Of a stretch of 64,000 bases of DNA, positions 15,694-52,862 are shown in pieces. The position numbers and the translations under genes are program-made. Position 1 is the stretch's first letter. Every line of letters begins with the position of its first letter. The notes beneath the pieces were generated by a model, which ran no database searches, was not told where the DNA came from, and worked only from the letters and a program-made list of their open reading frames with translations. The stretch is from Lysobacter sp. Root494. GTDB lineage: Bacteria > Pseudomonadota > Gammaproteobacteria > Xanthomonadales > Xanthomonadaceae. The stretch lies in assembly GCF_001427225.1 (NCBI RefSeq), contig NZ_LMFH01000001.1:224330-288329 (forward strand), in the 5' to 3' direction.

Positions 15694-15808
15694 TTTTGCT
15701 CGTCATTCCCGCGAAAGCGGGAATCCAGCGACTTTGTTTTTGCCTTGCCTGCAGACCAGCAAGAGCAAAGACACTGGATTCCCGCTTTCGCGGGAATGAC
15801 GAGCAAAA
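15694..15808. repeat. dRS3-like palindromic repeat element, copy 2 (short symmetrical form)
   Basis: Two arms of about 43 bp in inverted orientation each hold the 20-bp palindrome: ATTCCCGCGAAAGCGGGAAT at 15705-15724 and ATTCCCGCTTTCGCGGGAAT at 15778-15797. They are separated by about 30 nt rich in TTGCC/AGCAAG. Outer ends are TTTTGCTCGTC and GACGAGCAAAA. This is the cleanest short copy in the window. It lies between convergent genes, the lipoprotein and the glycosyltransferase. Confidence 0.9.
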
Positions 15809-25146: not shown

Positions 25147-25328
25147 GCTCGTCATTCCCGCGAAGGCGGGAATCCAGTGACTTGGAGATTGCCGTGGAAC
25201 TGTCTGTACATGCTTGGCGAGCAAAAGCATCAGTCACCGGATGACCAGCGCTTCGCACTGTGGAAAGGCCCTTCCCGCCTGACCAGCCTCCGGTTGTGGT
25301 GAAGCACTTCCCGGGATGACGGGCAAGA
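25147..25328. repeat. dRS3-like repeat element, copy 4 (short left arm, long right arm)
   Basis: The left arm has the perfect ATTCCCGCGAAGGCGGGAAT at 25154-25173. The right arm (about 25228-25328) carries the long interior GGATGACCAGCGCTTCGC, CTGTGGAAA, CCTGACCAGCC, GGTTGTGGTGAAGCACTTC and ends GGATGACGGGC. It occupies most of the 283-nt gap between the reductase and YqhA-like genes. Confidence 0.8.
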
Positions 25329-45196: not shown

Positions 45197-45332
45197 TTTG
45201 CTCGTCATTCCCGCGAAGGCGGGAATCCAGTGACTTTGCTTGCCTTGTGCTTTTTGCTTGGTCTTCGTGGTTCGCTCTCCGCCAAAAAACGGAAGTCACT
45301 GGATTCCCGCCTTCGCGGGAATGACGAGCGTA
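45197..45332. repeat. dRS3-like palindromic repeat element, copy 6 (symmetrical)
   Basis: ATTCCCGCGAAGGCGGGAAT at 45208-45227 and its inverted partner ATTCCCGCCTTCGCGGGAAT at 45304-45323, with flanks TTTTGCTCGTC and GACGAGCG and inner flanks CCAGTGACTTTG and GGAAGTCACTGG. The centre is about 50 nt. To its left (45160-45196) a TTGCTCTTGCTTCTGC low-complexity run extends from the terminus. It occupies the gap between the S9 peptidase and hemF. Confidence 0.9.
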
Positions 45333-49640: not shown

Positions 49641-49852
49641 GGCCAGCCCTCCGTGCGTTCCGAAACCAGATGGAAGCGTGCGCGACATCCGGTGAATCCC
49701 GCGTCCATACGCCGTGAGGCCGCGGTGATACGGCGCTGCGGGCGCCGACAACGGTCGCGTTCCTGCTCCGGTTCCGCACGAGCGCATCTGCTCCTGTTCG
49801 CCCGGCGGTTTGCGGCGCAGAATATGCAGCCGCGGCGCACCCCACGTGCCGC

Positions 49853-49866
49853 GGAGGCGTTGCGTG
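49853..49866 (+). promoter_or_regulatory. ribosome-binding site that sets a GTG start for cydA
   Basis: GGAGG (49853-49857) lies 6 nt before the GTG at 49864. The residues it starts ([13 protein letters not shown]) match the CydA N-terminus, so GTG rather than any upstream ATG is the start. Confidence 0.8.
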
Positions 49867-51285
49867 GATGCATTGCTGCTCTCCCGGATCCAGTTCGGAT
49901 TCGTCATCTCCTGCCACATCCTGTTTCCGGCCTTCACCATCGGCCTGGCGAGCTGGCTGGCCTTCCTCGAGTTCCGCTGGCTGCGCACGCGCGACGCGGT
50001 GTGGCGCGACCTGTATTTCTTCTGGCTGAAGATCTTCGCCGTGTCGTTTGGCATGGGCGTGGTCAGCGGCATCGTCATGAGCTTCCAGTTCGGCACCAAC
50101 TGGGCGGTGCTGAGCGAGAAGGCCGGCAACATCCTCGGCCCGCTGCTCTCGTATGAAGTGCTGACGGCGTTCTTCCTGGAGGCGACCTTTCTCGGCGTGA
50201 TGCTGTTCGGCGCCAGGAAGGTGCCGGAGAAGCTGCATTTCCTCGCCACGTGCATGGTCGCGCTGGGCACGCTGATCTCGACGTTCTGGATCATCTCCGC
50301 CAACAGCTGGATGCAGACGCCGCAGGGCTACACGCTGACGGCCGACGGGGTGTTCGAACCGGCGAACTGGTGGGCGATCGTCTTCAATCCCTCGTTCCCG
50401 TATCGCCTCGCGCACATGGTGCTCGCGGCGTTCATCACCACCTGTTTCGTCATTGGCGGCGTCAGCGCGGGTTACCTGCGCCGTGGGCTGCATGTCGATG
50501 CGGGCCGGCGGATGCTGAAGCTCGCGGTCCTGTTCGCGGCGATCGCAGTGCCGGTGCAGGTCTTCGTCGGCGACCAGCATGGCCTCAACGTCGGCGAGCA
50601 CCAGCCGACCAAGCTCGCGGCGATGGAGGGGCACTGGGAGCAGGGTGCGAAGGGTGAAGGCGTGCCACTGGTCCTGTTCGCGCTGCCGGACCAGAAGGCG
50701 GAGCGCAACGATTACGAAATCGCGGTGCCGAAACTCGGCAGCCTGATCCTCACGCATTCGCTGGATGGCGAGATCCAGCCGCTGAAGGCCGTGCCCGCGG
50801 ACGAGCGGCCGCCGGTCGCGCCGGTGTTCTTCGCCTTCCGCGTGATGGTGGGGCTCGGCCTGCTGATGCTCGCGCTGGTGCTGGTGTCGCTATGGCAGTG
50901 GCGGCGCAAGCGGTTGTTCGAGTCGAAGTGGGTGTTGAACGGCTGGCGTGCGATGACGCTGGCCGGCTTCGTGGCCATCCTTTCGGGCTGGTACGTAGTG
51001 GAAATCGGCCGCCAGCCCTATGTTGTCTACGGCTTGTTGCGTACTGCAGACGCGGTGACGCCGACGCTCGCAGCCGGCAGCGTGTTGACGTCATTGCTGG
51101 TGTTCGCCGCGGTGTATTTCACCGTGTTCGGCGCGGGCATCTGGTACCTGCTCAAGTTGATCCGCAAGGGCCCGCAACCGCACGAGCCGATGCCGGAAAG
51201 CGATTCGGGAGAGCGCACGCCCGCGCGGCCACTTTCGATAGGCAATCGCACGCCGGATGATGCGACGGCGGAGAGTGCGCCGTGA
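49864..51285 (+). CDS. cydA: cytochrome bd-type ubiquinol oxidase subunit I
   Basis: 473 residues, nine membrane helices. It binds haems b558, b595 and d and oxidises ubiquinol. [24 protein letters not shown] holds the first haem His region, [19 protein letters not shown] and [23 protein letters not shown] the conserved helix segments with Glu residues, and [20 protein letters not shown] the family-wide GRQP motif (Tyr in place of Trp). The Q-loop is short, so this is of the CIO/short-loop class. The GTG start is fixed by GGAGG at 6 nt. cydB follows only after 554 nt because a GIY-YIG/palindrome element sits between. Confidence 0.95.
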
Positions 51286-51319
51286 GGCGAGCCGGCAAGC
51301 GGTACGTGAGCGCGTTTGT

Positions 51320-51708
51320 TTTTGCTCGTCATTCCCGCGAAGGCGGGAATCCAGTGACTTTGGGGTTCAGGGATGAAGCAACCCGCGGTCTACATCCTCG
51401 CCAGCGCACGCAATGGCACTTTGTACGTTGGTGTAACGAGTGATCTTGTTCAGCGGACTTGGCAGCACAAGGAACACCTGGTCGACGGTTTCGCGGAAAA
51501 GCACGGTGTCGAATACCTGGTTTGGTTCGAGCTTCACGCCACCATGGACTCGGCGATCACCCGCGAGAAGCAGATCAAGAAGTGGAATAGGGAATGGAAG
51601 GTGCGGCTGATTGAAGAAGCCAATCCGTACTGGAATGACCTTTGGTCCCAGATTGTCGGGTAAGAGCAAAGTCGCTGGATTCCCGCCTTCGCGGGAATGA
51701 CGAGCAAA
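51320..51708. mobile_element. GIY-YIG-carrying dRS3-like palindromic element (copy 7) between cydA and cydB
   Basis: Inverted arms of about 40 bp, identical but for one base, bound the element: left 51320-51362 with ATTCCCGCGAAGGCGGGAAT at 51331-51350, right 51665-51708 with its partner at 51679-51698. Outer ends are TTTTGCTCGTC and GACGAGCAAA. The interior is exactly filled by a 96-codon GIY-YIG gene, whose stop abuts the right arm. Shorter copies elsewhere in the window share the arms but not the gene, so they resemble non-autonomous derivatives (MITE-like). No transposase is present; mobility by nuclease-driven recombination is inferred, not shown. Confidence 0.75.
51373..51663 (+). CDS. 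small GIY-YIG nuclease nested in the palindromic element
   Basis: 96 residues, single-domain GIY-YIG endonuclease (URI/UPF0213 type). Motifs: AVYILASARNGTLYVGVT (the GIY...YIG pair as VYI...YVG), then SDLVQRTWQHK with catalytic Arg and His, and MDSAITREKQIKKWNREWK with the metal-binding Glu, ending NPYWNDLW. It is predicted to be a DNA nuclease, small and without a separate DNA-binding domain. A GGGG motif 7 nt upstream of the ATG lies in the junction with the left arm. Both flanks are inverted arms, so the gene belongs to the element rather than to the cyd operon. Confidence 0.92.
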   Translation: MKQPAVYILASARNGTLYVGVTSDLVQRTWQHKEHLVDGFAEKHGVEYLVWFELHATMDSAITREKQIKKWNREWKVRLIEEANPYWNDLWSQIVG

Positions 51709-51715
51709 GGCAACA

Positions 51716-51815
51716 GCCGCAAAGCAGCAGCGGCAAAGCAGCAGCCACAAAGCAGCAGCGGCAAAGCAGCAACCACAAAGCAGCACTCACAAAAGCAGCA
51801 CTCACAAAAGCAGCA
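51716..51815 (+). repeat. seven-unit tandem repeat in the cydB leader
   Basis: Five 14-nt and two 15-nt units of the form (G/A)C(C/G)(G/A)CAAAGCAGCA run head to tail from 51716 to 51815, starting 8 nt after the end of the GIY-YIG element and ending 24 nt before cydB. The units are contiguous with no spacers. It could change length by slippage and so affect cydB expression. Confidence 0.85.
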
Positions 51816-51839: not shown

Positions 51840-52862
51840 ATGGAATACTGGCTTCCCATCATCTGGTTCGGCGTCATCGGCTTTGGCGTGCTGATGTACG
51901 TGCTGCTCGACGGCTTCGTGCTCGGGCTCGGCATCCTCGCGCCGTTCGCGGAGGACGAGCACCAGCTCGACCACATGATGAACACGGCCGCGCCGATCTG
52001 GGACGGCAACGAAACCTGGCTGGTGCTCGGCGGTGCCGGCCTGCTCGCTGCGTTCCCGAAAGCCTACGCGGTGGTGCTGTCGGCGCTGTACCTGCCGGTG
52101 CTGCTGATGCTGATCGCGCTGGTGTTCCGCGGCGTTGCCTTCGAGTTCCGCTTCAAGGCGAATCGCGCGAAGAAGGCCTGGGGCCTGGCCTTCTCGCTCG
52201 GCTCGATGTTCGCCGCGTTCGCGCAGGGCGTGATCCTCGGCGCGCTGGTGGAAGGCATGCCGTTGCAGGGCGGCAAGTACATCGGCGGCCAGTTGTTGAA
52301 CAGCGCATTCGCCTGGTTCAGTCCGTTCTCGATGCTTACGGGCATCGCCGTCGTGTTCGGTTATGCGCTGCTCGGCTCGACCTGGCTGATCCTCAAGACC
52401 GAAGGCGGCATGCAGCAGATCGCGCGCACGCTGACGCGGCCGCTGGTGCTGGTCGTCGTTGCGTTCATGGGGCTGGTAAGCGCGTGGCTGCCGTTCCTGG
52501 ACTCGCGGATCATGGCGCGCTGGTTCGAAGGCGGAAATTTCTGGTGGCTCGCGCCGGTGCCGCTGCTCGCGCTGCTCAACGCGTTCGCGTTGTGGAAGGC
52601 CGCGATGCGGCAGGGGCGCGACGCCGCGCCATTCGTGCTGACGCTGTGCTTCTTCGTGCTCGGTTTCGCCGGCCTCGTGCTCGGCATCTGGCCGAACATC
52701 GTGCCGCCGTCGATGACGATCTGGGAAGCAGCGTCGCCGCCATCGTCGCAGGGCTTCGTCGCCGTTGGCCTGATCGTGCTGCTGCCGGCGATCCTCGGCT
52801 ACACGGCATGGTCGTACAGCGTGTTCAAGGGCAAGGTCGCGGCGGACTCCGGCTACCACTGA
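51840..52862 (+). CDS. cydB: cytochrome bd-type ubiquinol oxidase subunit II
   Basis: 340 residues with eight to nine helices. It stabilises the haem subunit and completes the bd oxidase. YVLLDGFVLGLGILAPF and NTAAPIWDGNETWLVLGGAGLLAAFPKAYA are the CydB signature, followed by LVFRGVAFEFRFK and the C-terminal VLLPAILGYTAWSYSVFKG. The ribosome-binding site is weak (CAGGA, 9 nt from the ATG). Because the element and tandem repeat separate it from cydA, it may depend on read-through or on its own promoter; none is obvious. No cydX-like ORF is evident between 52863 and 52976. Confidence 0.94.
   Translation: MEYWLPIIWFGVIGFGVLMYVLLDGFVLGLGILAPFAEDEHQLDHMMNTAAPIWDGNETWLVLGGAGLLAAFPKAYAVVLSALYLPVLLMLIALVFRGVAFEFRFKANRAKKAWGLAFSLGSMFAAFAQGVILGALVEGMPLQGGKYIGGQLLNSAFAWFSPFSMLTGIAVVFGYALLGSTWLILKTEGGMQQIARTLTRPLVLVVVAFMGLVSAWLPFLDSRIMARWFEGGNFWWLAPVPLLALLNAFALWKAAMRQGRDAAPFVLTLCFFVLGFAGLVLGIWPNIVPPSMTIWEAASPPSSQGFVAVGLIVLLPAILGYTAWSYSVFKGKVAADSGYH

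Follow-up and report, generated by a model that had tools for sequence, protein, structure and literature searches.

The window, the whole stretch of 64,000 nucleotides of Lysobacter sp. Root494 DNA analysed here, contains a small nuclease gene that lies between two inverted copies of a palindromic repeat and, on a larger scale, between two genes that, from reading the sequence, we take to be cydA-like and cydB-like. These two neighbours had been missed in the earlier note on this DNA, whose central observation, a nuclease gene between inverted arms, holds with the coordinates given here. The features of the locus and the further repeat copies of the window are as follows.

49810–51285, + strand: cydA-like gene, upstream of the nuclease (open reading frame; start codon as in the list of reading frames)
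51316–51362, + strand: left arm, a CGTC-1 REP with outer TTTTGCTC and inner AGTGACTTTG (repeat finder, copy comparison)
51373–51663, + strand: single-domain GIY-YIG nuclease gene, 96 aa, putatively of Ssn type (open reading frame; Pfam PF01541; AlphaFold2 model)
51667–51713, − strand: right arm, the same CGTC-1 REP inverted (repeat finder)
51840–52862, + strand: cydB-like gene, downstream of the nuclease (open reading frame)
1946–1970, + strand: single dispersed REP, imperfect, with 2 mismatches to GTCATNCCNGC-N4-GCNGGNATCC, palindrome at 1949
15702–15800, no strand: inverted REP doublet without a gene, palindromes at 15705 and 15778 (motif search)
25151–25175, + strand: single dispersed REP, palindrome at 25154 (motif search)
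45204–45325, no strand: inverted REP doublet without a gene, palindromes at 45207 and 45303 (motif search)

The 96-aa protein matches PF01541 over residues 5–76 (E 2e-14), and both Pfam and the AlphaFold2 model (pLDDT 91.7) describe it as a small single-domain GIY-YIG protein, as are the members of the Ssn family discussed below. Residues Y7, Y18, R28, H32, E65 and N84, among others, are invariant in 51 aligned sequences, which fits an intact GIY-YIG active site, the positions being assigned by way of known GIY-YIG motifs. Foldseek neighbours of the model are BH0048, Slx1 and the UvrC N-domain, all weak (E 5e-3 or worse); a PDB sequence search returned BH0048, EF2693, UvrC and Slx1 together with WD-40 and WRAP designs, the latter taken as spurious, and no NCBIfam family matched. 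A phage origin was rejected (0 PHROGs families; tblastn against 50,697 phage records gave no match), as was a reading as a defence gene (0 PADLOC families). The Root494 genome has one copy of the nuclease, other genomes of the family having up to five matches, and two further GIY-YIG genes; the small one of these two, which lies on contig C5, is without arms of this kind (its best inverted-repeat score is 9).

The arms are 47 nt each, 94% complementary and separated by 304 nt according to the repeat finder. The stop codon, described earlier as touching the right arm, ends 3 nt short of it as the repeat finder drew that arm, and the earlier figure of one difference in about 40 bases is right for the core, whereas the full 47 nt contain three. 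Each arm reads CGTC-ATTCCCGC-GAAG-GCGGGAAT-CCA and thereby agrees with the CGTC-1 REPs, a class in which dimers are common, in the CGTC tag, the AT-starting 8-bp stem, the 4-base loop and the CCA tail, as described by Di Nocera et al. 2013 (PMC3733652). The same text equates the CGTC-1 REPs of Neisseria with dRS3 (PMC3733652), and the link to Neisseria drawn in the earlier note holds. As single-stranded DNA, the left arm folds into a hairpin better than shuffled sequences do (z −3.75). Directly 3' of the right arm, at window positions 51707–51790, lie imperfect 14-nt tandem repeats (AAAGCAGCAGC...).

The repeat is abundant in this genome. The gene-free arms previously reported from four other gaps of the window are present, as two single palindromes and two inverted doublets; genome-wide, the pattern ATTCCC-N8-GGGAAT occurs at 96 sites, against 0 for the pattern read backwards, and the asymmetric motif GTCATNCCNGC-N4-GCNGGNATCC, with at most two mismatches, has 194 copies, against 0 for its reversed control. 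Pair orientation was counted among the first 100 motif sites listed, all without mismatch, taking neighbours within 400 bp: 27 pairs are of the > < type, four >>, four << and none <>, and their spacers measure 17–163 nt, the nuclease pair alone having 324 nt. Of these 100 repeats, 35 stand without a listed neighbour, a diverged and unlisted partner being possible, and it therefore seems to be the arm or the doublet that multiplies rather than the unit with the gene. Among 30 distinct copies sampled from the roughly 194, conservation extends from about 8 nt outside GTC to about 10–14 nt inside the tail; beyond these limits none was clear and the gene interior is not shared, so the sampled copies are REPs rather than shrunken gene-bearing units.

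These counts bear on the reading proposed in the earlier note, an autonomous element plus MITE-like derivatives, in which the arms would be terminal inverted repeats, the nuclease would serve as transposase and the doublets would be internally deleted copies. Gene-bearing and gene-free inverted pairs do have the same orientation, but the 30 copies have only the arm unit in common, with no shared subterminal interior, and the unpartnered repeats also speak against it. The distribution of insertion sites cuts both ways. In three species of the genus, the nuclease occupies three different junctions: cydA|cydB in Lysobacter sp. Root494 (G000), a gspE|gspF-like secretion-operon junction in G001, and a site adjoining an acrylyl-CoA reductase-like gene in G002, where the copy is broken (names from sequence reading). 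The cydA|cydB gap is 554 bp and filled in G000 and 2 bp in G001, while the gspE|gspF-like junction is filled in G001 and 4 bp in both G000 and G002. Likewise, the sufB|sufC junction of Azospirillum lipoferum 4B holds the nuclease gene together with two repeat doublets, whereas in three species about 94% identical to it this junction has neither nuclease nor doublets. Filled and empty sites thus differ between species, and the presence/absence polymorphism of the arms that had been named as a check is found at that level, in keeping with a transposon; the intergenic spacers, in the comparison for target-site duplications and in the sufB|sufC alignment alike, are too diverged to place the ends of an insertion. 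Of 30 cydB loci fetched, some of them distant cydB relatives, 28 are without the nuclease.

In the family, 72 loci are distributed over 25 sites; seven of these sites, most of them spanning genera, are each occupied in at least two loci and together account for 54 of the 72. Such concentration, together with the one gene copy in this genome, is unlike an active transposon, and the autonomous-element reading now appears improbable. The three sites in three species of one genus are no proof of recent jumps either, because all three junctions are also filled elsewhere, across genera, and a freshly mobile element was rejected as their explanation. The shared junctions reflect either old insertions that were inherited or lost, or repeated filling by insertion or by recombination of flanking genes. 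At one cydA|cydB gap of 110 bp (L215, genome G009) there is one perfect symmetric palindrome with two outer half-arms and no gene; its outer flanks resemble those of the window by eye, and it is probably a collapsed element.

The association of nuclease and palindrome extends far beyond the window. Arms were scored as the best inverted repeat between 200-nt flanks, with a score of at least 16, and controls were positions shifted within the same loci. Of the 80 relatives taken from named records, 62 pass this criterion, compared with none of the 284 control positions; the possibility that GIY-YIG genes of this clade mostly lack flanking arms is thereby answered in the negative. These relatives are 62–79% identical and, judged by their record titles, come from six phyla, 68 of them from Pseudomonadota. 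A search of the family gave 104 matches, of which 91 loci were examined (the approximately 12 omitted rows are mostly fragments or near contig ends), and 66 of the 91, a set that partly overlaps with the 80 relatives, have arms, against 4 of 358 controls; by identity band, from first to last, the proportions are 43/50, 16/28, 5/8 and 2/5. Clear arms are absent from 18 of the 80 relatives and 25 of the 91 family loci. The gene-between-arms arrangement exceeds chance. Some broken-looking homologues, with an apparent frameshift or internal deletion, still lie between recognisable arms (L220/L148 in G015, L090/L256 in G002). The Rhizobium homologues (L242, L243) are without inverted arms, and the Rhizobium plasmids are therefore uninformative as a strain test of filled versus empty sites; another REP-like inverted doublet (CTCATTCCTGTG...CACAGGAAT) lies there, only downstream of the nuclease gene.

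Repeat number also follows the gene. The sample, taken from a larger group so that each species is represented once, consisted of 198 family genomes, and 66 of them have a nuclease homologue at E ≤ 1e-6. With a gene cut of E ≤ 1e-10 and repeats counted with up to one mismatch, 50 of the 61 gene-bearing genomes hold at least 20 repeats, compared with 8 of the 137 gene-free ones; at the level of at least 50 repeats, the figures are 36 of 61 and 0 of 137. Because the genomes are related, ordinary Fisher and Mann-Whitney p values treat them as more independent than they are. A within-genus permutation gave p = 5e-5, the minimum reachable with 20,000 shuffles, and in 11 of the 12 genera that contain both kinds of genome, the gene-bearing ones have the higher mean repeat number. 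The eight gene-free genomes that pass the lower threshold hold 20–42 repeats; these may be remnants from before the gene was lost, or the genomes may be exceptions.

Repeat type is matched to the nuclease as well. The nuclease tree, built on 151 of 168 candidate loci after removal of cross-collection duplicates and of alignments with fewer than 76 query residues, is based on 96 columns, and its resolution is poor. When the stem class of the arms, with 'none' as a state, is mapped onto it for the 151 homologues, 47 changes are needed; shuffled assignments need 83 on average, and 0 of 200 were as low. Single genomes can hold paralogues with different arms (G034, G039, G064 and G173); in G034, for example, these are TTCCCG, TCCCGG and TCCCGA. 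In the genome-wide test, which omits 13 gene-bearing genomes without an assigned clade, a threshold of five TCCCGG repeats is reached by 17 of the 28 genomes that have clade B, by 2 of the 25 that have only clade A and by none of the 132 gene-free genomes; for five TTCCCG repeats, the corresponding counts are 26 of the 35 genomes that have clade A, 5 of the 18 that have only clade B and 4 of the 132 gene-free ones. The five TTCCCG exceptions with clade B only are G023, G046, G063, G104 and G147; G063 has 43 TTCCCG and no TCCCGG repeats and also a split nuclease match of 71% identity. The TCCCGG exceptions with clade A only are G041, with 8 repeats, and G120, with 9; G041 additionally has a nuclease with TCCCGG arms that falls outside clade B on the tree and was excluded from the test.

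For six of the eight site groups compared, arm identity is higher within a locus than between species that share the site; at cydA|cydB, for example, it is 0.97 within a locus versus 0.81 between species. The exceptions are a Pseudomonas group (0.940 within versus 0.963 between) and a three-locus TCCTCG group (0.960 both). This likeness suggests that the two arms are replaced or converted together, or that the insertions were separate events. At the gspE|gspF-like junction, two nuclease groups differ in the inner arm tail too, as judged by eye.

The tracking of number and class has to be weighed against the idea that another enzyme, such as a RAYT, moves the repeats, which would serve to end transcription or to stabilise mRNA, while the nuclease gene would simply lie among them or regulate itself through them. 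REPs frequently follow genes and may have a role at the RNA level, as Di Nocera et al. 2013 (PMC3733652) describe. Against an independent mover stand the repeat number, which tracks the nuclease within genera, and the repeat class, which tracks the nuclease clade even among the paralogues of one genome. Moreover, CGTC REPs occur in several phyla and had no known enzyme in the 2013 survey, whose Table 1 lists no association with transposase genes and which states that they apparently lack a transposase of their own (PMC3733652), whereas here a nuclease gene is associated with them. This explanation is accordingly unlikely, on a par with the transposon. A homing-like history, in which the nuclease cuts gene-free allelic sites and is copied in by flanking-gene recombination, so that the same junctions are repeatedly occupied in different genera, would suit the fourfold occupation of cydA|cydB, which involves at least three genera and differing arms, and the two nuclease groups with unlike inner tails at gspE|gspF, but it is marginally the least credible of the three, since the clean empty junctions of 2–5 bp contain no repeat to cut and the repeat, the putative target, lies at about 200 places and flanks the gene on both sides, unlike a single allelic site destroyed by insertion.

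A gonococcal homologue, 68.8% identical to the window's nuclease over 93 aa, is surrounded by 16 dRS3-type palindromes within 5.3 kb and provides a close relation to a Neisseria protein; we presume that this reading frame is the published Ssn. In the gonococcal record (L239:1615-3188), the palindromes are 72–123 bp apart, except for a 421-bp gap that holds the nuclease gene. Ssn of Neisseria was reportedly described in Nature Communications in 2025 as a site-specific single-strand nuclease of the GIY-YIG superfamily that acts on the NTS repeat and whose cutting affects DNA uptake; the report is said to mention thousands of homologues with varied specificities, in clades each with its own palindromic sequence. 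From sequence similarity and that report, the protein of the window is a likely member of the Ssn family, and the earlier suggestion that its mechanism might be undescribed is doubtful for the same reason. The likeness consists in the single GIY-YIG domain, the gonococcal relative among its palindromes and the clades with palindromes of their own. The present case differs in the host family, in the framing of the gene by the repeat at a gene junction, and in the co-occurrence and class matching over 198 genomes.

Other known systems share part of this arrangement. RAYT-REPIN systems (GTAG REPs) have a many-copy REP family, paired inverted units and a chromosomal gene flanked by its own REPs; they differ in the REP tag and in their HUH tyrosine transposase, whereas the window's protein has a GIY-YIG fold according to Pfam. 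GIY-YIG homing endonucleases and the UvrC and Slx1 domains have the fold in common with it, but here there is no extra domain in the 96 residues and there are about 200 potential targets. Among open-licence papers, none of the matches listed in a literature search linked GIY-YIG genes with REPs.

Association across genomes, including the 194 copies of the repeat in this one, makes it highly probable that nuclease and repeat form a cognate pair. We favour the reading, with a probability of about 0.7, that an Ssn-type GIY-YIG nuclease targets the CGTC-1 REP hairpin that also flanks its own gene, and that nicking followed by repair links the two. The protein would bind the repeat when it is single-stranded and folded, as in replication, DNA uptake or repair, and would then nick it. 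Repair of the nick might copy, delete or homogenise repeats, so that repeats would multiply with the nuclease and decay after its loss, and the nuclease gene, carried between two targets, may occasionally be moved, or be replaced, at junctions between genes. Where the host is naturally transformable, such cutting may also influence DNA uptake. Mobilisation of the repeats by the putative nuclease is plausible in this scheme. A broader proposal, to which we give somewhat less than even odds, is that the mobilising enzymes so far lacking for the CGTC REP superfamily, including dRS3, are the Ssn-type nucleases, acting without a transposase, in parallel to RAYTs, by hairpin nicking and repair, with the gene itself carried only rarely.

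The presence and clade of the nuclease predict the number and type of repeats, and this makes the enzyme a testable candidate for CGTC REPs. If nicking drives their spread, bacterial REPs would have a second, chemically different way to multiply; if it does not, the homologues still offer a rich natural set of nuclease/hairpin pairs with different likely specificities. The link with CGTC REPs in general, as a class, and the quantitative co-occurrence may be new, and no claim to a first report is made for either.

Several side observations concern neighbouring material. Six distant GIY-YIG genes of 34–52% identity (L195, L198, L199, L200, L201 and L203) have other flanking inverted repeats (TGTCATCCCGA..., GGCTGAGCTTGTCGAAGCC, CTCATCCTGAGC...), and the pairing may therefore reach more of the small GIY-YIG group; the repeats at L201 and L203 are weak, because their controls also reach 19–23. 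Three PLSDB 'plasmids' of 2.2–4.9 Mb from Neisseria gonorrhoeae and Aeromonas caviae (NZ_CP119140.1, NZ_CP119142.1 and NZ_AP026896.1) look like chromosomes. Finally, on a plasmid of Sphingomonas parapaucimobilis (NZ_CP155753.1; L248:1750-2210), a small nuclease-like DUF559 gene lies between sufB and sufC in inverted palindromic repeats of the CCCTCCCCTTCAGGGGAGGGG type, which differ from the nuclease arms, and this gene with its repeat may be a second, unrelated nuclease-repeat pair.
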